From Runella sp. MFBS21 (GTDB lineage: Bacteria > Bacteroidota > Bacteroidia > Cytophagales > Spirosomataceae), in assembly GCF_029433105.1 (NCBI RefSeq), contig NZ_JARNTW010000001.1, positions 992,001 through 1,056,000 on the forward strand: a stretch of 64,000 nucleotides of DNA, read 5' to 3'. Under the pieces are notes generated by a model. The model saw only the letters and a program-made list of their open reading frames with translations, had not been told where the DNA came from and did not search any database. Of the stretch, positions 37,860 to 58,365 are shown one piece after another; the stretch's first letter is position 1; every line of letters begins with the position of its first letter. Position numbers and translations under genes: made by a program.

Positions 37860-39806
37860 ACCGCGTGGTTGAACCATTACGACCTCTTCTTTGTCTAAAA
37901 TTACTTCTCCTTCAGGTAAGCCTTTAGGTTTTCTGACAAATTTTTTCGGGGTTACGATTACCGGACAAAGCGTTTCATTGCGGCGTTTCGAGTACCAAGC
38001 GGCGATTTGAGCGGCGCGCTCAACGACGCTATTAGGAATTTTTTTGCCTGCTTTGTATTTCACTACTACATGGGAGCCAGCTACATCGCGGGCATGTAGC
38101 CAAAGGTCTTCCTTATAGGCGTATTTTTTGGTGAGGAGGTCGTTGTTTTTTGCATTTTTTCCAATCAAAATCACATATCCATCAAACTCGGTGTGCTTGA
38201 AAAGTTGGGTAGGAGATAGGACGGGCGCATCGCTGAGAAGATTATTATTTTTAAGGTATTTGCGCAATAGTTTGAGTGATTCAAATGCTTCAATAATGCT
38301 GACGTGGTTTTTGAGTTCTTCCAGTTCGCCTTCCCTTAAAGCGATATTCTCTTGCAATTTTTCAATTTCGATGCGCTCATTTTTTGATTTTCGATAATAG
38401 CTTTCGGCGTTGCGTTGTGGGGTTAAGTCTGGTTTTAGCTTGATATCGATGTCTTGATTGCGATAAAAATCAAACAATGTTACCCGTTCGGCACGCTCCG
38501 GAATTTGGTGAAGATTGGCCATTAAAATATGTCCAATTTCCTCATTTTTGATATTGCTATCAATGTCTAATAATTTCTGAAAAGCTTCTTCCAAATAATG
38601 CTCAGTTCGTTGGATACGCTTCTGAATCATTTTGAGGGCTTCGCTTTTTTCTTTTGCAATGACTCCTATGCGATTGTAAGTAGTATAGAAATCATTGAGA
38701 GCGATAATGGGGTCGGTATGTTCGCGAACGACCTCCCCCAGCGGTACAAGCGAAAGAGTAGGTTGATGATTCCAGAGGCTAATACGAAATGTAGGATTTG
38801 AAAGAAGCATCAACGTATTTTGGATGATTTGCCAACGGTGTTTCGTAGGGGCAGGCCTTGCGTCTGCCCCTACTACGGCTTGAGAGTCTGCGCTTACGGC
38901 TTGAGAGTCTGCGCTTACAGCTTGTGCGTCTGCCCCTACGGCTTGTGCGTCTGCCCCTACAGCTTGTGCGTCTGCCCCTACGGCTTGAGAGTCTGCCCCT
39001 ACGGCTTGAGAGTCTGCCCCTACGGTTTGTGAGTCTGCGCTTACGGCTTGAGAGTCTGCGCTTACAGCTTGTGCGTCTGCCCCTACGGCTTGTGAGTCTG
39101 CCCCTACGGCTTGTGCGTCTGCCCCTACAATATCGCCTATGGCGTCAGGTGTGGGCTTTGTGCCAATGTCTATTTGAGTTTGTGCAGACGCAGTAGGGGC
39201 AGACGCAGCAGCAAGGGCAGACGCAAGGCCTGCCCCTACATGGGTAAATTGCTTTTCCAGATATGCATTTATTTCCTTTCCAAACGTGGGGAATATTTTA
39301 CGATGGTCATAATTGGCAGCTTCATAAGCTTCCCAAGATTGGTCGAGAGAGCGGTCAAGCTGCGAGAGTTTTAGAGTATTGTCAGAAACAAGTTTATTGT
39401 GAAAAAGGTCGATGACTAGGTCGTTCTCAAACAATACTGCGTTTGAGCGATTGCCAAATAATTTGAAAACGAGCGTGAAATTCTTGTCGAGTACAATCCC
39501 CAACGCTCGTTCATTATGAAATTGTCGTATCTCTGTGACCTCCAAATCATAGAGATTTTCGAATAAATCTACGCTATTTTGGCGAGCGCGGTTAAATTCG
39601 TCAGGGAAGTTGAAGCAAGCAAAATCAGGTCGTAACATCGCCCGAATAAAAAACGGACGATAGTAATTGTTTTTGCCGCGAGCTTGAGCCAATACGATGA
39701 CCAACTCATCTTTTTCTTGACTAAAACATTCCATAAACTTCAACCCTTTGGTCAAGGGACGAAGCGCTTCGGTCAAATGTTTTAAAAAATGATAGTTTTG
39801 ATGCAT
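37854..39806 (-). CDS. NFACT/RqcH ribosome quality control protein with repeat insertion
   Basis: From ATG 39806 it is 650 residues; a longer frame to 39884 is not homologous. RqcH/Rqc2 proteins bind obstructed 50S-peptidyl-tRNA complexes and recruit tRNA-Ala to add C-terminal alanine tails. NFACT-N: GLKFMECFSQEKDELVIVL, YYRPFFIRAMLRPDFACFNF, EFNRARQNSVDLFENL. A coiled coil follows (IKNEEIGHILMANLHQIPER, IEKLQENIALREGELEELK), then the C-terminal NFACT-R domain (KEDLWLHARDVAGSHVVVK, then GKKIPNSVVERAAQIAAWYS). Between NFACT-N and the coiled coil sits about 130 residues of tandem seven-residue units V(G/S)AD(A/S)QA, encoded by a 21-bp repeat bounded by palindromic elements. Those residues are absent from the family elsewhere. 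Confidence 0.92.
   Translation of the reverse strand: MHQNYHFLKHLTEALRPLTKGLKFMECFSQEKDELVIVLAQARGKNNYYRPFFIRAMLRPDFACFNFPDEFNRARQNSVDLFENLYDLEVTEIRQFHNERALGIVLDKNFTLVFKLFGNRSNAVLFENDLVIDLFHNKLVSDNTLKLSQLDRSLDQSWEAYEAANYDHRKIFPTFGKEINAYLEKQFTHVGAGLASALAAASAPTASAQTQIDIGTKPTPDAIGDIVGADAQAVGADSQAVGADAQAVSADSQAVSADSQTVGADSQAVGADSQAVGADAQAVGADAQAVGADAQAVSADSQAVSADSQAVVGADARPAPTKHRWQIIQNTLMLLSNPTFRISLWNHQPTLSLVPLGEVVREHTDPIIALNDFYTTYNRIGVIAKEKSEALKMIQKRIQRTEHYLEEAFQKLLDIDSNIKNEEIGHILMANLHQIPERAERVTLFDFYRNQDIDIKLKPDLTPQRNAESYYRKSKNERIEIEKLQENIALREGELEELKNHVSIIEAFESLKLLRKYLKNNNLLSDAPVLSPTQLFKHTEFDGYVILIGKNAKNNDLLTKKYAYKEDLWLHARDVAGSHVVVKYKAGKKIPNSVVERAAQIAAWYSKRRNETLCPVIVTPKKFVRKPKGLPEGEVILDKEEVVMVQPRGL
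38845..38873. repeat. 29-bp palindromic element inside the NFACT gene, left copy
   Basis: GTAGGGGCAG - loop GCCTTGCGT - CTGCCCCTAC. It is the exact reverse complement of the intergenic element at 33698-33726. Confidence 0.9.
38874..39125. repeat. 21-bp tandem repeat (minisatellite) in NFACT coding sequence
   Basis: Twelve head-to-tail 21-bp units, each starting TACGGCTTG or TACAGCTTG and ending GTCTGCCCC or GTCTGCGCT on the plus strand. Each encodes seven residues on the minus strand (VGADAQA, VGADSQA, VSADSQA). Units fall into at least four sequence types that alternate, suggesting slippage and recombination. Every unit is a multiple of three, so the reading frame is kept. Confidence 0.95.
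39212..39240. repeat. 29-bp palindromic element inside the NFACT gene, right copy
   Basis: AAGGGCAG - loop ACGCAAGGC - CTGCCCCTAC, opposite in orientation to the left copy at 38845 and slightly shortened at its 5' arm. A further half-copy (GTAGGGGCAGACGCAG) lies at 39193-39208. Confidence 0.85.
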
Positions 39807-50144: not shown

Positions 50145-53100
50145 TTAACGAATAAGTTGGTTTTCGACTGGCCAGGTTTTAGCATTTTCTAATATCATTT
50201 TGATTTCGGGTTTACAGCTACCACAGCCTGTACCTGCTCCGGTTTGTTGGCATAGGGAGGGCAAATCGCTACAACCGGCTCTAATAGCATCTTGTAAATT
50301 CCCCTCTCCGATGTTGTTGCAGGAGCATATTACTTTTCCTTTGACTGGTGTCGTGCTTTGACCACTTCGAAGTAGTTTAAGACGTTTTTCGGATAATTCG
50401 GTTTTTTGTTGAATCAAAGATTTGAATTCCACAAACTCGGACTTATCTCCTACGAGTATAGCCCCTACTAGGCGGTCGTTATAAATAATACACTTTTTAT
50501 AATACCTTTTTGTTCTATCCATAAAAATCACTTCTTCATAGTTGGTACTTGCTCCATTGACTGGAATCTCGGTGATTCCTAAAGAACATAAATCTAACCC
50601 GTCTATTTTCAAAATGTTCATAGAGATAGTGGGTCGGTAGTAGCTTTGGATATCGCCACTGAGATAGGCACAGAGAGCTTCGGCTTGTTGCTCTGCGGCG
50701 GCAGTAATGCCAAATTGCTGCCCTTCAAATTCGGCTACTTCACCCACCGCAAAAATAAAAGGGTCAGAAGTTTGGAGATAGGCATTGACGACGATACCCC
50801 GCTGAACTTCCAAACCCACTTGACGAGCTATTTCTAGGTTTGGAGTCGTGCCCATGGTAAATATTACGGCATCGCAAGTGAGGATTTGACCAGAAGTAAG
50901 GCGAAGTCCAGTTGCTTTTTTTTGGGTTTCGATGATATACTTTACTTCGTCATTATAATAAATATCAATACCACGGTCTCGAAGTTCCTCGTGCAAAAGA
51001 GTACTTGCTGTAGAATCTAATTGGCGATTCATAAGGCGAGAAGCGCGATGAATTACCGTGACACGTTGAGAGCGCTGTCGTAAAGAAGCTGCTAATTCTA
51101 AGCCTAACAACCCTCCTCCCACAATCACCACGTTTTTGGTAGAGGGCTTGCTATATTTTTCTTCAATGGCTAAGTATTGCATTAGTTTATCAGCGTCTTG
51201 GCGAGTTCTCATCGTAAATACCCCCTCTAGTTTTGTATCTAAATCACGAGGAGTAGACGCGCGACTTCCCGTAGCAATGATGAGGCGGTCGTAATGATGC
51301 ATTTGGCCCCTTGAATCATAAACTACCTTGTGAGTTCGGTCAATCTTCCCAATACTTATGCCTTCGTGCAAGTGAATCAAGGCGCGTTCATCATCTTGCA
51401 TTTTGAGAAGTTTTTCCCATTTCATAGCCCCACTGACATAATCGGGGAGCATTACGCGGTTGTAGAAGGCGAAGGTCTCTTTGCTAAACACGTGGATTTC
51501 GTCGGTAAGATTCCATTGTCGATGAGTAGTGACAAACTTATAGGCGGCTGCCCCTGCCCCTATCACAATGATACGTTCTTTAGGCTTTCTGAATTTTTTT
51601 ACTTCAACGGCAGCATATTTAAAGTCTGGCTCCTTGGAGAAAGGATCTAATAAATCGCTGGTTAGGTTGTTGGCACGAGCCGCACTCTGATGAAGAATCT
51701 TGCCCCAGTGCATGGGCAGGAAAACTACGCCTGGCCGAATATCGTCCGTGATTTTGGCCGGGACTTGCACTTTGCCGCGTGTATTTTCAATGATTACTAT
51801 TTGACCTTCTTTGATGCCTCTTTCTACGGCGTCTTGAGGGTTTATTTCGAGTACAGCTTTAGGGATATGCTGGGTAAGCTTGTTGACTTTACCCGTTTTG
51901 GTCATGGTGTGCCATTGGTCGCGTAGGCGCCCAGTGGTAAGAATCAAAGGGAAGTCGTCACTCAACGCTTCGGATTGATTTTCATCAGGTACGGTTTTGA
52001 TTTGGGCTTTGCGAGAAGGAGTAAAAAACTGATGGTCCGCAAAAAGCCGAGCAGTTCCACTAGAATCACGACTAGGAACTGGCCATTGAAGCGTGCCTTG
52101 TGTACGTAGGCGCTCGTGCGACACCCCGCTGATGTCGATGTGCGTACCTTGGGTAAGGCGAACGTGCTCGTCGTAGATTTCTGCTACATTTTGGTAGTTA
52201 AAAGCGTCACCAAATCCCATTTTATGGGCAAATTTGACAATAATTTCACTGTCGGGGAGTGCTTCTCCTACAGGCTCGCTAAATTGGGATAAGTAAGAAA
52301 TACGACGTTCGGAATTGGTCATAGTGCCAGTTTTTTCGCCCCAAGCTGCCGCAGGGAGTACTAGGTCGGCATAGGCTAGGGTATCCGAACGATTAGAGAT
52401 ATCTTGGACAATCACAAATTTGGCCGCTTTCAAAGCTTCTTCTACCAAATGCACATTGGGTAAACTTACGAGCGGATTAGTACACATAATCCAAATAGCT
52501 TTCATTCGCCCGTCTTTGAGTGCTTCAAACATTTCGGTAGCTGTAAATCCGGGCTTAGGATTGAGTGACGGAACACCCCAAAAATCAGCCACTTCTTGTC
52601 GGTGGGTAGGGTCGGCCAAATTGCGATGTGCTGGTAGAAGATTGGATAGCCCACCTACTTCTCTTCCACCCATTGCGTTGGGTTGGCCTGTCAAGGAGAA
52701 CGGCCCCGACCCTGCCTTACCGATATGCCCCGTAATCAAATGGAGATTGAGCAAAGCTAGATTTTTGTTGACCCCAATGACACTCTGATTGAACCCCATA
52801 GCCCACATAGAAATAAATCCTTTGGATTTGCCAATGTACTCTACCGCTTGGTGAATATCATGCAGGCTGATGCCGCAGATTTTGGCCGCCTCTCGCATGT
52901 CGCGTTGGGCTACTTGAACTCGGTAAGAATCAAAACCTTCGGTGTGATTTCTGATGAATTGTTCATCAATGTATCCCCTCGAAATCAGTCCCTTGGCGAG
53001 AGCGTTGAGCAATACCACATCCGTGCCAGGTTTGATTTGAAGGTGAAGGTCGGCCATACGGGCAGTATCAGTACGGCGGGGGTCTATCACCACAAATTTA

Positions 53101-53693
53101 ACACGCGGATTGGCCGCTTTATGGGCTTCCATCCGACGAAATACAATAGGATGATTCCAAGCGGGATTGGAGCCAGCAATCAAAAAACAGTCAGCAAGTT
53201 CGATGTCTTCATAACTACACGGCACAGAGTCTTCCCCTAGCGCCATTTTGTATCCTACCACCGCCGACGACATACAGAGGCGAGAGTTGGTATCAATGTT
53301 GTTGGAGCCTATAAAACCTTTGATAAGTTTATTGACCACGTAGTATTCTTCGGTGAGGCATTGCCCTGAGGCATAAAATCCTACGGAATCGGGGCCGTAT
53401 TTCTCAATAAATGTCTTAAATACAGCTGCTGCTCGTTCTAGTGCCGTATCCCAGCTGACGCGTTGGGGTGGTGATTGTCGATTGCGGCGCATTTGGGGAT
53501 ACAGCAGTCGATCGGAAGTATCCATCACAGTATAATGCAAATTCCTTCCTTTTGAACAAAGCATTCCTTGGCTTGAAGGGTGGCTAGGGTCGCCTTCTAC
53601 GGAGATATTGCCGTTGCGACTTTTCTGAACCACTACCCCGCAGCCTACGCCACAGTAGCAACAAGTGGTTTTGTATGAGGTTGTTTCGTTCAT
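50145..53693 (-). CDS. Assimilatory nitrate reductase fused to NirB-like FAD and BFD [2Fe-2S] domains
   Basis: 1182 residues, three parts. Residues 1-690: molybdopterin oxidoreductase with a 4Fe-4S cysteine motif at the start (CCYCGVGCG, then SQGMLCSKGRN), FIAGSNPAWNHP-type Mo-cofactor binding (FLIAGSNPAWNHPIVFRR), and a dinucleotide-binding C-domain (TGRLRDQWHTMTKTGKVN). Residues about 715-1100: FAD/NAD(P) reductase like the NirB N-terminus (RIIVIGAGAAAYKF, NVVIVGGGLLGLELAASL). Residues 1119-1165: BFD-type cluster domain (VICSCNNIGEGNL, TGCGSCKP). This predicts an NAD(P)H-dependent cytoplasmic nitrate reductase on one chain. No siroheme nitrite reductase with intact cysteines is present in the window. 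Confidence 0.9.
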   Translation of the reverse strand: MNETTSYKTTCCYCGVGCGVVVQKSRNGNISVEGDPSHPSSQGMLCSKGRNLHYTVMDTSDRLLYPQMRRNRQSPPQRVSWDTALERAAAVFKTFIEKYGPDSVGFYASGQCLTEEYYVVNKLIKGFIGSNNIDTNSRLCMSSAVVGYKMALGEDSVPCSYEDIELADCFLIAGSNPAWNHPIVFRRMEAHKAANPRVKFVVIDPRRTDTARMADLHLQIKPGTDVVLLNALAKGLISRGYIDEQFIRNHTEGFDSYRVQVAQRDMREAAKICGISLHDIHQAVEYIGKSKGFISMWAMGFNQSVIGVNKNLALLNLHLITGHIGKAGSGPFSLTGQPNAMGGREVGGLSNLLPAHRNLADPTHRQEVADFWGVPSLNPKPGFTATEMFEALKDGRMKAIWIMCTNPLVSLPNVHLVEEALKAAKFVIVQDISNRSDTLAYADLVLPAAAWGEKTGTMTNSERRISYLSQFSEPVGEALPDSEIIVKFAHKMGFGDAFNYQNVAEIYDEHVRLTQGTHIDISGVSHERLRTQGTLQWPVPSRDSSGTARLFADHQFFTPSRKAQIKTVPDENQSEALSDDFPLILTTGRLRDQWHTMTKTGKVNKLTQHIPKAVLEINPQDAVERGIKEGQIVIIENTRGKVQVPAKITDDIRPGVVFLPMHWGKILHQSAARANNLTSDLLDPFSKEPDFKYAAVEVKKFRKPKERIIVIGAGAAAYKFVTTHRQWNLTDEIHVFSKETFAFYNRVMLPDYVSGAMKWEKLLKMQDDERALIHLHEGISIGKIDRTHKVVYDSRGQMHHYDRLIIATGSRASTPRDLDTKLEGVFTMRTRQDADKLMQYLAIEEKYSKPSTKNVVIVGGGLLGLELAASLRQRSQRVTVIHRASRLMNRQLDSTASTLLHEELRDRGIDIYYNDEVKYIIETQKKATGLRLTSGQILTCDAVIFTMGTTPNLEIARQVGLEVQRGIVVNAYLQTSDPFIFAVGEVAEFEGQQFGITAAAEQQAEALCAYLSGDIQSYYRPTISMNILKIDGLDLCSLGITEIPVNGASTNYEEVIFMDRTKRYYKKCIIYNDRLVGAILVGDKSEFVEFKSLIQQKTELSEKRLKLLRSGQSTTPVKGKVICSCNNIGEGNLQDAIRAGCSDLPSLCQQTGAGTGCGSCKPEIKMILENAKTWPVENQLIR

Positions 53694-53716: not shown

Positions 53717-55012
53717 TTAGGCTGCCTGTAATTCTGTTTCGGTTTGTTTGAGGGTAACAGTTTTACCAAAATTTACTAAAAACAATAGCACCCCCGTAAT
53801 AGCCACTATGCCTCCGATATACATGAAGGCTTGTCCATAAGAAATAGATTGAGATTTAAACAAAAAGCCCATGAGCATTCCACCTACATTTCCGCCAGCT
53901 CCTACTACGCCCGAAATTACACCTACGGCTTTGGGATTAATGAAGGGTACAATGGCGTAAGTACCACCGTTGGCCATTTTCAGAAACATCGCAAACGTAA
54001 GCATAGATAAAATAGCGAGGGTCAAATTGCCTGCTTGGGCAAACAACAAGATGCCAATACCTTCCAGCAACAGCATAGAAGCAAGCAAAATCCCTTTACC
54101 CCTCATTCCAAATTTTTGTCCTACTTTGTCGGCAACAATACCACCTACGGCACGGGCAAAAATATTCATAAACCCAAATAGCATTGCCCAAAACCCTGCC
54201 TCGGTTTCTTCCATGTGGAAGTTGTCGAAAAAATAAAGCGCTGCTACGCCGTCAAAGGTGATTTCCATTCCAAAGCAGCAAGCATAGGCAATGGCCAACG
54301 CCCAAACCCGAATGTCAGAGCAAGCTTTCCAAAAAGAAACGGTTGATTGAGAGGTATTTGTGTGGTTAATTTCGTCGTAGTTTCCGGCAGGAGTATCTTT
54401 GGTATATTTCCAGTAGACCCAAGCCATAAGAAGCATCATAAGACCCGGCACAATCATCGCCAGCCGCCAAGCATCTGCTTTTACAAAACCAAATCCCATA
54501 ATAGTAGCCATAATGAGAGGCATAGCAAGCTGCGTAATACCGCCGCCTAGATTTCCCCAACCTCCTGCAACGGCATTGGCTGTACCTTTGATAGTAGGCG
54601 CAAACATCATAGAAGTATGAAACTGCGTAATCACAAACGAAGCGCCAATCACGCCAATCGCCAAACGAAACAATAAAAATGAAGTATAATCTTTGGCCAA
54701 GCCCACGAGCATGACGGGCAAAGCACCCACTATCAAAAGAGCAGTATAAGTTTTGCGAGGCCCCCAAGTATCACATAATTTACCGATAATGAGCCGTGCG
54801 AAAATCGTAGCTGATACCGCCGCAATGATAGTATTGCCGACTTGAGGTTTGGTAAGTCCTAAATCGGCTCGAATGGCAGGCATTAAGGGTGCTATTCCAA
54901 ACCAACCAAAAAAACACACAAAGAAAGTAAGCCACGTGATGTGGAAAGTGCGCATCTGAATGCCACTAAAACTAAAAATATTGAGCTGAGAAAGAGGTTT
55001 ATTAGAAGTCAT
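53717..55012 (-). CDS. Nitrate/nitrite transporter, MFS (NarK/NasA-like)
   Basis: 431 residues, 12 hydrophobic segments. Nitrate porter signatures: FHITWLTFFVCFFGWFGIAP, RLIIGKLCDTWGPRKTYTAL and the glycine-rich signature GGWGNLGGGITQLAMP. It imports nitrate (and perhaps exports nitrite) across the inner membrane. It lies 23 bases upstream of the nitrate reductase gene in reading direction, which fits cotranscription. Confidence 0.94.
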   Translation of the reverse strand: MTSNKPLSQLNIFSFSGIQMRTFHITWLTFFVCFFGWFGIAPLMPAIRADLGLTKPQVGNTIIAAVSATIFARLIIGKLCDTWGPRKTYTALLIVGALPVMLVGLAKDYTSFLLFRLAIGVIGASFVITQFHTSMMFAPTIKGTANAVAGGWGNLGGGITQLAMPLIMATIMGFGFVKADAWRLAMIVPGLMMLLMAWVYWKYTKDTPAGNYDEINHTNTSQSTVSFWKACSDIRVWALAIAYACCFGMEITFDGVAALYFFDNFHMEETEAGFWAMLFGFMNIFARAVGGIVADKVGQKFGMRGKGILLASMLLLEGIGILLFAQAGNLTLAILSMLTFAMFLKMANGGTYAIVPFINPKAVGVISGVVGAGGNVGGMLMGFLFKSQSISYGQAFMYIGGIVAITGVLLFLVNFGKTVTLKQTETELQAA

Positions 55013-55045: not shown

Positions 55046-56581
55046 TTACTTTGCAGCTTTGGTCGTAAGGAAATCGGGGCGTATGTTGAGCATGATATAA
55101 GCCCAATGAGCACGGCGTTTGGTTTGGCCAATAGTACCTAGTTTGGCGTATTCGAGACTATCTGAGCCTTTGAGGAAAGAATACCCTACTTCAAGGTTCG
55201 TAAATTTGTTGAGGCTATAATTCATGATACAGTCCACTTCATTGCCTAGTTGGCGGTTTAGTTTTCCCGCCGAAGCATCTAGCCCATTTTTCATATCGTT
55301 GGCTAAAGCAAAGTGGTGAAAGTCCAATGTGAAATATAAATTCGGATTGGCTGTATATTTGGTTTTGAGGAAAGCATTGGCCAATCCACCTGCTGCCGAG
55401 CCCGTACCTACATAAAAATAATCCATGTATCCCCAATGCTTGTGTGGAGTACCATAGAGCGGGTCGAAGCGGTGGTCTTTGCCGTCGGGAGTAAGGGTAT
55501 TGCTGCCCGAAAGCAATTCATAGCCTGGTCCTATAGAAAGCCGTCCTTGTTGAATTGATACGTTGGCACCATAATGAAAAGCACTCAATGCCTGACCGTC
55601 ACGGTTTTTGCCTTGTTGTAAATAACCAAAGGCTTGCCAAGTAATTTTACCTAGTTTTTTGGCGAGCGGATTGAGTAGCCCAGTGAGCATGGCACCATAA
55701 GTAAAGCGGCTATGGACACCATTTACATCGTATCGGCGGCCATAAACTAGGCCATTGGAAGCATTACCGATACTATCTATTCTATACTTTTGAAAATCAT
55801 CTTTGAAGAAAAGCCCCGCAAATTTTGTAGTTCCGAATTTTCGGCTCAGATACACCATCTGCATTGATTTAAACATTTGATTTTGTCCATTGGTACTGAG
55901 AGGAGAGGTTAGGAGAGGAGCCCCTCCTTTAGAAGTAGTAGGAATAAAATCACTAGGAAGGCTGATATAGTCACCTTTAGAATTGGCGATAGTGGTGGGA
56001 GTATTGGCAGCTACATAAAAAGTGCCCGTACGTCCAAAAGCATCGCTATTTTGATTAAAAGCAGCTCCAATATCTATTTGCCAGCCTTTCTTTTGGGCTT
56101 TGAGCAAAGCCATATCAAAACGACGCCCTTGCTGGAGCCAATCCAAATTCCCAAGCAATCGTACATCATCGTAGATCAACTCTTGCCGTCCTATTTTGAG
56201 CGATAAGCGCTCAAAGGCCTTGGTTTTGAAGGAGGTATCGTTTGCGTTGGCCAGTATGATTTCGGCCCAAGCCTCGTGTAAAAACAATTTTGAGCCGTCG
56301 GAGTTGTTGATCGAAGAGGCATCTTGCCCCCATACCCTTACATCGCGGATATTGACTCCGAAGGTGAGTCGATCCCACCGATATCCAAAATTCAAGCTTG
56401 TTCGTTGGGAAGTAAATGTCGCTGCTTTAGCACCCAATTTGGCGAGGTTTCCGAGGCCGTCTCTTACCTCTGTACGGGTTCTTACTTGCCCTTGCAGGCT
56501 CATTTGAGCCTGCGCCGATTTGACTAGTAAGAATGTGAAAAGAAGTATCGTATACGATTGTACGTATAACAATTTTTTCAT
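55046..56581 (-). CDS. Outer membrane porin, alginate-export-like
   Basis: 511 residues with a signal peptide ending SAQAQ. A beta-barrel of the alginate export/porin type: LNFGYRWDRLTFGVNIRDVR, LSLKIGRQELIYDDVRLLGN, VGYSFLKGSDSLEY and a last strand AHWAYIMLNIRPDFL with a terminal aromatic pattern. As first gene of the nitrate transcript it is the likely outer membrane route for nitrate. Substrate assignment rests on context. Confidence 0.85.
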   Translation of the reverse strand: MKKLLYVQSYTILLFTFLLVKSAQAQMSLQGQVRTRTEVRDGLGNLAKLGAKAATFTSQRTSLNFGYRWDRLTFGVNIRDVRVWGQDASSINNSDGSKLFLHEAWAEIILANANDTSFKTKAFERLSLKIGRQELIYDDVRLLGNLDWLQQGRRFDMALLKAQKKGWQIDIGAAFNQNSDAFGRTGTFYVAANTPTTIANSKGDYISLPSDFIPTTSKGGAPLLTSPLSTNGQNQMFKSMQMVYLSRKFGTTKFAGLFFKDDFQKYRIDSIGNASNGLVYGRRYDVNGVHSRFTYGAMLTGLLNPLAKKLGKITWQAFGYLQQGKNRDGQALSAFHYGANVSIQQGRLSIGPGYELLSGSNTLTPDGKDHRFDPLYGTPHKHWGYMDYFYVGTGSAAGGLANAFLKTKYTANPNLYFTLDFHHFALANDMKNGLDASAGKLNRQLGNEVDCIMNYSLNKFTNLEVGYSFLKGSDSLEYAKLGTIGQTKRRAHWAYIMLNIRPDFLTTKAAK

Positions 56582-57090
56582 AAGTTTGTAAGGTTTTAAG
56601 TTAATCCCTAATTTAAGACTTCACAATACCCCGCCAGAACCGCCATTCTGCGGGGTTTTCTTTTTCCTTCCTAATAGGCGTCCGCCAACGCTATTGGAAG
56701 TTTACGTAAGAGCTACCAGAGTATATAAGGTGGGTGATTTTTATTTCTTGAAAAAATACTATTTATATAGAGTATTGATGGTTTTGAGGGGATTTTTTAA
56801 AATGAGTTAATTAAAAAATATAGTTTTTCAAAACAAGGTTGTAGAAAAAGTTTATATATTTACTATTGTACTTGTCAAAATAAAATTCTTATGTGTAGGT
56901 TGCTTAAAAATTTTACTTAAAAGTATGTTATAAATGTATATTTGCAAAATTTTGGTTGATAAATTCGCGTAAACAATCAAATATTCTTCATATTTTATAA
57001 ATATTTCTTTGAAATAGAACTATTTTAGGTTTAAAAAATGTGTAAATGATTAATTTTAGTTTTTGAAAACTAAGTAATTTTTAAGTAATT
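56582..57090. other. Divergent region of the nitrate locus
   Basis: 509 bases between porin and the trpD-like gene. The porin-proximal part (56628-56695) holds two bulged hairpins. The remainder (56720-57090) is very A+T-rich, with a TATATTTG box at 56937-56944 reading right that could drive the trpD-like gene. No gene is seen and no leftward -7 box could be identified. Confidence 0.5.
56628..56695 (-). promoter_or_regulatory. Twin hexaloop hairpins in the leader of the nitrate genes
   Basis: Read on the minus strand, hairpin 1 (56695-56673) is AATAGCGT, loop TGGCGG, ACGCCTATT; hairpin 2 (56656-56628) is ACCCCGCAGAA, loop TGGCGG, TTCTGGCGGGGT. Each has a one-base bulge on the 3' side of its stem, 3 or 4 bp below the loop. 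They are 16 bases apart and end 46 bases before the porin start codon. Two stems of unlike sequence with identical loops suggest an RNA bound by a regulator. Seen directly; function inferred. Confidence 0.55.
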
Positions 57091-58365
57091 GTGACTACTA
57101 TCGATTTCGCTATAAAATACAATTTAGATACTCCCCTAGCTAGAGGAATCAAGCAGGTGGGTATAGGAAAGCATGGAAGCAAACCCCTCGCGCCAGAGCT
57201 TGTGGAAGAGTGTTTGCGAGAGCTAATCCAAGGGCATTGTCATCCTTTACAAAAAGGGGCCTTCTTTGGGGCATTGATGATGAAAGGCCCTACCGATGCA
57301 GAGCTGAAACTAGAAACCTATATAGGAAGGCATGCCTTTTCGAATCCTGTATTTTTTTTAAATAAACTTTGCCCTGATTTGCCCCAAAATATGTTTCCGA
57401 TTGGTGTGAAATTACTAAGTGGAAAATCACTACAAGTATCTGAAGCGCATCAACTAGGCGATTTTTTATTGTCTGATGAACCTTGCGAAACTTTTAAAGG
57501 AATGGCAGTGAGTATTCTTCGAGTACGCTATGAAACCAACGACGAATACGAAGGACTGCATGAGGCAGTCATGAGTACTTATACGCCCGGTTTTCAGCGC
57601 CGTGTCAAAACCAAGTTCCCGATTATTCAATTGGCCGAACCCTTCGATGGTGTGGAGCATTCCTACATGATTACGCCTTTGCTGGCGTATTTTTTTCAGG
57701 AACGTAACTATAACGCAGTGACAGCACTAGGGCGCTCTTCAGGTCCTAAATATAAATTTAACTCCCACGATTTGTATCTTTATTTAGGAAGTTGGCTTCT
57801 GGCCGACAACCACGAATTATTGGAGATGAATCCTACGTTTGGGTGGGTCTTGGACCAAAAATCGCTTTCGCCTGCCCTTGACCAATGGGTAGAGCGCCGC
57901 CGAACTACGTTGAAAAGACCGTTTTTGGCCACGCTCGAAAAAGTGCTTAATCCCTGTGGTGCTCGTATTTTGGTCACGTCAGTATTTCATATTACCTATC
58001 AGATGAAGATGGCTGAGCTGGCACTTATGGCAGGTTTTGACGGCGTAATGGTGCTCAAACGAGGCTTAGAAGGGAGTTTGGCTCCTTCTACCTCCAAAGC
58101 AAGCGGTCTGCTGTGTGCGGTACGGAATGCCAACAATCATCTGTTTTTTACGCGATTGGAGCATGATTTTCCCGCTTTTGCAGCTTATCGTACGGAGACT
58201 GATGACGAAATCGAAAACCCTACCGCCGAAATCAATGCGACTTTGATTAGAAAATACCTTCATAATGGGCGTACCGACTATCATGATTTTGACAATAGAG
58301 TAGGGTATGCCAAGGCTTTATATATGAGAGGGTTGGACTGGATTGAGAGTCAAATAGGCTACTGA
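57091..58365 (+). CDS. Anthranilate phosphoribosyltransferase-like protein
   Basis: 424 residues from a GTG start. Belongs to the glycosyltransferase family 3 / TrpD fold: N-terminal helical bundle (ELVEECLRELIQGHCHPLQK, GAFFGALMMKGPTDAELK), central barrel region (SSGPKYKFNSHDL, NPTFGWVLD) and GFDGVMVLKRGLEGSLAPST. The phosphoribosyl-binding GTGG motif typical of TrpD is not clear, so tryptophan synthesis is doubtful; no trp genes are near. It is divergent from the nitrate genes, and such proteins are often found next to Bacteroidota nitrate loci. Substrate unknown. Confidence 0.75.
   Translation: MTTIDFAIKYNLDTPLARGIKQVGIGKHGSKPLAPELVEECLRELIQGHCHPLQKGAFFGALMMKGPTDAELKLETYIGRHAFSNPVFFLNKLCPDLPQNMFPIGVKLLSGKSLQVSEAHQLGDFLLSDEPCETFKGMAVSILRVRYETNDEYEGLHEAVMSTYTPGFQRRVKTKFPIIQLAEPFDGVEHSYMITPLLAYFFQERNYNAVTALGRSSGPKYKFNSHDLYLYLGSWLLADNHELLEMNPTFGWVLDQKSLSPALDQWVERRRTTLKRPFLATLEKVLNPCGARILVTSVFHITYQMKMAELALMAGFDGVMVLKRGLEGSLAPSTSKASGLLCAVRNANNHLFFTRLEHDFPAFAAYRTETDDEIENPTAEINATLIRKYLHNGRTDYHDFDNRVGYAKALYMRGLDWIESQIGY

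Follow-up and report, generated by a model that had tools for sequence, protein, structure and literature searches.

The window, a 64,000-nt stretch of a Runella genome, carries a nitrate operon on its minus strand, and two small hairpins lie ahead of the operon's first gene. The features discussed below are:

50145..53693, minus strand: assimilatory nitrate reductase, C-terminal NAD(P)H-oxidoreductase part (domain scan; tblastn partners annotated as nitrate reductase)
53717..55012, minus strand: NarK-type MFS transporter (Pfam MFS_1; aligns with NarK-family neighbours)
55046..56581, minus strand: porin (Pfam Alginate_exp), the first gene 3' of the hairpins
56605..56616, minus strand: linear stretch TTAAATTAGGGA, also present in the nirB and cobA leaders of Runella G001
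56628..56656, minus strand: hairpin 2, ACCCCGCAGAA-UGGCGG-UUCUGGCGGGGU, loop at 56640-56645, 3' bulge
56657..56666, minus strand: purine-rich linker of 10 nt from hairpin 1 to hairpin 2 (from the sequence; aligned in the Runella leaders)
56667..56700, minus strand: hairpin 1, CUUCCAAUAGCGU-UGGCGG-ACGCCUAUUAGGAAG, loop at 56682-56687
57091-58365, plus strand: gene for a TrpD2/YbiB-like protein, divergent to the nitrate operon

Twin hairpins ahead of a nitrate operon

The initial annotation had described two hairpins with the same UGGCGG loop on stems of different sequence, and this description held. Each hairpin also has the 3'-side bulge near the loop that the annotation mentioned, a single base lying three to four pairs off the loop. 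Hairpin 2 ends 46 nt before the porin ATG (56581), just as had been estimated, and its loop starts 64 nt ahead of that codon. The spacing of 16 bases given for the two hairpins applies to shorter stems; with the stems drawn in full, it is 10 nt.

Judged by folding energy alone, hairpin 1 (-10.9 kcal/mol) was equalled in 6 of 200 shuffles, hairpin 2 (-19.0 kcal/mol) in none of 200, and the two jointly in 2 of 200. A pair test addressed the shared loop: it asked for two hairpins within 80 nt, each with E <= -10 and both with an identical hexaloop of any sequence. Such a pair appeared in 0 of 1,000 dinucleotide shuffles of the 509-nt intergenic region and in 0 of 20 shuffles of the whole window. 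Beyond the twin hairpins and their mirror image, the real window holds one more identical-loop pair (CCCCTA near 38954, plus strand).

The annotation had also raised the possibility of a dispersed DNA repeat. The 201-nt hairpin region matched only itself in its own genome, which speaks against this, and a covariance model (R1) agreed. R1 was trained on a set that contains both window hairpins and leaves out the nirB and cobA sites of Runella, and up to 150 candidates per genome were scored. In the window, it found just hairpin 1 (26.6 bits) and hairpin 2 (22 bits). Among the 150 of 299 candidates scored in the own genome, hairpin 2 came out on top (22 bits, E 0.036), and one other match reached E <= 10 (14.8 bits), hairpin 1 not being among those listed. 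No Rfam 15 family reached its gathering score in the window or in 17 loci of relatives, and the permissive Rfam matches had a best E of at least 1.

A consensus scan of 56400-57200 returned no intrinsic terminator on either strand. The minus strand continues with AUUGUGAAG after hairpin 2 and with GAAAAAGAAA after hairpin 1, neither of which contains a U-run, in line with the annotation's remark that no terminator follows. Read on the plus strand, hairpin 2 is followed by TTTTCTTTTTCC, and an A-run stands 5' of many of the relatives' hairpins, features that would suit an intrinsic terminator of rightward transcription. We give this reading a negligible probability, as there is no plus-strand gene that ends there, the scan scored no terminator, and the conserved loop, hairpin 1 and the nirB site described below would be left unexplained.

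The short linear stretch TTAAATTAGGGA lies shortly 5' of start codons, at the porin in G000, G003 and G009 and at nirB and cobA in G001. Four Runella genomes contain eight exact copies, three of them at unrelated places, and the backwards control also has eight copies, i.e. the stretch shows no genome-wide enrichment in these four genomes relative to that control. A different stretch, ACAGGGTTT, is common to Spirosoma-type porin and nirB leaders at a similar position. In Runella, as in G028 and G040, the TrpD2/YbiB-like gene on the other side of the intergenic region is oriented away from the nitrate operon; in G050, it adjoins two-component genes.

Sites at the porin, nirB and cobA in Runella

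Of 13 Runella genomes, our own included, 10 yielded the porin. All 10 porin leaders contain both hairpins with unchanged UGGCGG loops, and hairpin 1 varies by clade in its lower stem. The nitrite reductase gene nirB was likewise found in 10 of the 13, the three genomes without it being the same three that have no porin. It is located elsewhere in the genome, away from the porin operon, and no UGGCGG hairpin was found in its Runella leader. The loop occurs inside the gene, where nucleotides 76-97 form an 8-pair stem around UGGCGG in all 10 Runella nirB genes. Seven genes have the form AAAGCGGG-UGGCGG-CUCGUUUU and three have AAAGUAGG-UGGCGG-CCUAUUUU. Between the two variants, two pairs are altered on both sides (C-G to U-A and G-C to A-U) and one G-U becomes G-C, so that pairing is kept throughout.

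Of the first 58 codons of nirB, 16 differ between G000 and G001, and 14 of these differences are silent. The sole amino-acid changes, at codons 27 (A to V) and 31 (S to L), both fall in codons that form the stem. It appears that the RNA stem dictates two amino acids of the enzyme, which would make nirB a clear-cut case of selection acting on the structure of an mRNA within a gene. The double pair change is one event, common to three genomes, and the stem score was equalled by 40 of 500 shuffles (four distinct rows); the argument therefore rests on the pattern of changes and not on the shuffles. R1 matched the nirB-internal site partially, in 3 of the 10 genes.

A third type of site precedes cobA, which is divergent to nirB in 8 of 10 Runella loci. 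All eight leaders contain a UGGCGG hairpin whose stem varies between clades, and R1 matched all eight, with individually weak scores (12.2-17 bits, E 0.012-0.48). These eight were among 12 R1 matches in the Runella nirB and cobA loci, the remainder being the nirB sites of three genes and one site that we could not explain. In our own genome and in G008, cobA was matched only by another paralogue, which sits behind a different gene and has no such hairpin. Two further signals at cobA were set aside: a GTGGGGGC stretch near its start is coding sequence (LVGAG), and hairpins at its 3' end are possibly a coincidence of coding (GVGAPA).

Elsewhere, R1 also matched in or beside unrelated genes (L133, L142-L145, L147, L148 and L150). 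We read L133 and the seven matches in relatives as chance. One match (L146), at a nitrate locus and 0.3 kb past nrtC, may be real.

Loop types across the Bacteroidota

We compared the best 80 of 549 NarK loci, together with 20 stretches from relatives. A loop-blind scan of the NarK strand yielded 2,669 strong hairpins (E <= -12), and the commonest hexaloops in the best 80 of 549 loci were TGGGGG (15), TGGCAG (13), GTCGCA (12) and ATGCCA (11). The last was discarded as a signal because it is nasA coding sequence (TGQPNAMGG); some hairpins with the other three loops also fall within coding sequence. The loops follow lineage: UGGCGG in Runella, Xanthocytophaga and G028; UGGGGG in Spirosoma and Larkinella; UGGCAG in Niastella, Chitinophaga and Flavisolibacter; and GUCGCA in Mucilaginibacter. 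Rarer loops, partly picked out by eye, were UGAGGG, CGGGGG, UGGGGA, CGGCAA, CUGCCA, CGGCCA, UAACAA and GUGGAG.

A strong hexa- or heptaloop hairpin was present in 42 of the 80 leaders of first transport genes (best 80 of 549 loci), compared with 31 of 330 after shuffling. Several of these 42 leaders bear loops outside the recognised types, and in 20 the loop begins 61-72 nt 5' of the assigned start, a range that includes the 64 nt of the window. In the other 38 of 80 loci no strong hairpin was seen, a number that is an upper bound on true absence, since the start was sometimes wrongly assigned and a part of the hairpins falls beyond the stretch examined. Across sites chosen for folding, pairing was found in 88.6% of cells (42.8% when shuffled), and the covariation score was 1.09 (0.22 when shuffled). 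Extra 3' bases in 28 of 46 sites make the bulge common, not universal. CUGCCA, in a sense-strand loop with a 5'-side bulge, occurs in four genomes (G040, two Segetibacter and Paracnuella). Pairs of hairpins are not the rule: many leaders have a single one and L041 has three. In several Chitinophagaceae, the hairpin follows the nirD stop codon by no more than some tens of bases and precedes the porin. This position, like the site inside nirB of Runella, bears indirectly on the annotation's refuting condition that the sequence might fall outside the transcript.

The orientation of the hairpins bears on whether the signal is one of RNA or of DNA. Around NarK (E <= -10), sense sites outnumber antisense sites by 17:1 for UGGGGG, 9:1 for UGGCGG and 15:3 for UGGCAG. 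A double-stranded DNA site for a nitrate two-component or Crp-type regulator could be imagined, as genes for such regulators lie within many of the clusters. We hold this to be highly improbable: stem sequence varies while pairing is kept, the sense bias is strong for UGGGGG and UGGCGG, one site is inside nirB, and the regulator type differs between orders that both have the hairpins. Pairing kept on varying stems, placement on the sense strand and the site inside nirB thus favour a signal read as RNA over one read as duplex DNA.

Several loci repeat one loop at more than one gene. UGGGGG hairpins are found at narK, porin and nrtA in L032, and once at narK and twice at the porin in L036. UGGCGG occurs twice ahead of the porin and once ahead of narK in L050, and three times ahead of the porin in L041. 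In Mucilaginibacter-type loci, GUCGCA precedes nirB by 55-58 nt (L079, L092) or by 23 nt (L069, with a doubtful start assignment), and precedes the porin, or an unassigned gene in the porin's place, by 60-64 nt. Adhaeribacter aerolatus (L122) has CGGCAA at both of these positions. Taking the best hairpin per leader, nirB and transport loops agreed in at least five of six bases in 7 of 71 loci, against a permuted mean of 2.1 and with 5 of 2,000 permutations as high, a modest excess in a test devised after seeing the sequences; a stricter test of exact-loop sharing gave 4 of 79, against 1.2 when permuted. In G028, which belongs to another genus, nirB contains ACCGA-UGGCGG-UCGGU about 90 nt into the gene, in a sequence context unlike that of Runella, and its cobA leader contains UGGCGG in poorly paired surroundings. 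No UGGCGG hairpin was seen in the leader of either nirB or cobA in Xanthocytophaga or G040.

These patterns can be set against a rival reading, namely that a partner-free cis hairpin shields or paces mRNA by the nitrate genes, with loops alike only by descent or copying. The stems are indeed stable, and many sites are intercistronic or just 5' of a gene. Such a reading is unlikely in view of the loop's retention on differing stems within one genome, in leaders as well as inside nirB, and of the way the loop type shifts in step at nirB and the porin in several lineages.

The Chitinophagaceae nirB leaders yielded no hairpin with the porin loop of their own locus, and several of them contain CUGCCA, the complement of UGGCAG, in linear form. 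Together with the constant, exposed, G-rich loops, this would suit a loop that is recognised by a small RNA pairing with it in trans and not by a protein. We regard such pairing as decidedly improbable, given how short a pairing six-base loops allow. A recurring TTGCCTGCC-like stretch in nirB leaders of Chitinophagaceae and relatives (L068, L070, L082, L091, L103, L105, L110, L123) contains or adjoins CTGCCA, the complement of the porin UGGCAG loop.

Some lineages show further peculiarities around the element. In the porin leaders of Spirosoma and relatives (L013-L016, L025-L028, L058, L104, L115, L120), most have a conserved short ORF, e.g. MLNTNDSKKMKKIR, about 25 nt past the UGGGGG hairpin. 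The porin start lies much farther 3' in these leaders, and the frame of the short ORF differs in L013 and L016; the ORF may encode a leader peptide, or it may be what is left of an earlier porin start. In L034 and L042, an extra coding stretch in the 3' part of cobA folds a UGGGGG hairpin (L034:10865, L042:10800), as if the gene had accommodated the RNA element. Nitrate assimilation clusters are also found on plasmids of Spirosoma oryzicola (L156) and Hymenobacter volaticus (L157), and the former retains a UGGGGG hairpin between cobA and the porin (L156:10710).

A putative RNA recognition element and known systems

The hairpin signal is real, conserved and common to several nitrate-assimilation genes. 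On the sequence evidence, the twin hairpins are probably copies of a regulon-wide mRNA recognition element for nitrate and nitrite assimilation in the Bacteroidota, read by a putative trans-acting RNA-binding factor. The hairpins themselves, their recurrence, the one loop on changing stems and the compensatory change inside a gene appear in the sequences compared. A loop that stays constant on freely varying stems across the genes of one genome, and changes between lineages, suggests a trans-acting reader. Support for regulon-wide reading is tempered by the weak scores of single sites. The new RNA motif for nitrate genes of Bacteroidota that the initial annotation had proposed gains support from the lack of an Rfam match and from the compensatory change in relatives. 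The literature searched contained no RNA-level control of nitrate assimilation in this phylum; a 224-motif catalogue (10.1093/nar/gkx699) may hold an earlier description.

Beyond the alignments, we infer that the hairpins are transcribed, that a factor reads them and that some step of expression is controlled. In the mechanism we propose, the mRNA would display a short stem capped by an invariant loop typical of the lineage (UGGCGG in Runella), often over a small bulge. A trans-acting RNA-binding factor would recognise the loop and thereby place transport, reductase and siroheme genes under joint control. The factor may act on the elongating polymerase or on the fate of the mRNA, by antitermination of the LoaP or nut kind or by protection. 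We tentatively favour this mode of action over the blocking of one start codon because the hairpins lie in leaders, some 60 nt 5' of starts, as well as between genes and, in nirB, about 80 nt into the coding sequence, a distribution ill suited to simple interference with ribosome binding. A bolder version, which we put forward as a speculative possibility, is a shared RNA code in which a non-ANTAR RNA-binding factor shifts its loop specificity by lineage and the target loops follow, with sites in leaders, between genes and inside frames serving nut-like control of elongation.

No candidate for the reader was identified among the neighbours conserved across the nitrate loci, which we take to be a Crp-type regulator, two-component proteins, molybdenum-cofactor genes and a DUF7009 protein. 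The two-component system and the Crp-type regulator were rejected as RNA partners, since they have DNA-binding output domains (one example of each was scanned) and their type varies by order. A Crp-family regulator with an N-terminal cysteine cluster occurs in 38 fetched loci, often beside nirB or cobA (e.g. L060:4292-4978, minus strand); it belongs to nitrate loci of Sphingobacteriales and Chitinophagaceae, and its place in Cytophagales is taken by a PilJ-domain kinase and a LuxR-type regulator. The TrpD2/YbiB-like neighbour was also rejected. It is present in 22 of 59 genomes, is missing from nine genomes with hairpins (G013, G015, G017, G021, G023, G027, G029, G032, G036), and does occur in Runella G005-G007, three genomes that yielded no copy of this porin and no nirB. 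Its E. coli relative YbiB is described as a DNA-binding TrpD2 protein (PMC10123104). A hairpin whose loop is lineage-specific and yet agrees among its targets offers a handle for finding a new RNA-binding regulator, through affinity purification or phylogenetic profiling.

The closest comparison is with ANTAR targets, which the initial annotation had invoked. As described in PMC3369931, the targets of NasR, NasT and EutV resemble the window in being hexaloop stem-loops, sometimes paired, ahead of nitrate-type genes and with their identity in the loop. An ANTAR dimer would bind both loops and prevent a terminator. The window has the two adjacent hexaloop stem-loops, and its 10-nt linker, measured between full stems, lies within the roughly 5-12 nt that this paper gives for eut leaders. 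The rule stated there (PMC3369931) calls for A at loop position 1 and G at position 4. UGGCGG has U1 and C4, as the annotation had recognised, and is invariant in the 10 Runella leaders. No terminator was found at the second hairpin, a terminator being usual but not obligatory in ANTAR systems. The Bacteroidota hairpins further differ from the targets described there in their single and intragenic copies and their lineage-specific loops. A profile search for ANTAR (PF03861) put no protein above the cut-off of 27.3 bits in any of 21 Bacteroidota genomes (best 12.9 bits in our own genome and 22.7 overall; positive control W01, 78 bits), and single-sequence searches gave no significant match in 12 Bacteroidota genomes. 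With the loops, the terminator, the protein and the single hairpins of other leaders all pointing away from it, the ANTAR comparison did not survive, and we consider an ANTAR-type target very improbable.

The boxB/nut sites of phage lambda are short hairpins in leaders or genes that load an antiterminator, in a phage system with pentaloops and boxA. The present hairpins are alike in being short and in lying in leaders and genes; they differ in their hexaloops, and antitermination is not indicated by the sequence. LoaP and its dfn target (PMC12691694) also combine a small leader hairpin, a trans factor and control of a whole operon. The dfn hairpin is of UNCG type with a leader terminator, whereas the hairpins described here have UGGCGG hexaloops, several per regulon, and no terminator was found. 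In a survey of 104 motifs (PMC2864571), the main text does not contain the words nitrate or nitrite, and a table names a GUCCY-hairpin. That survey likewise presents candidate RNAs found by comparison, several of them restricted to Bacteroidetes.
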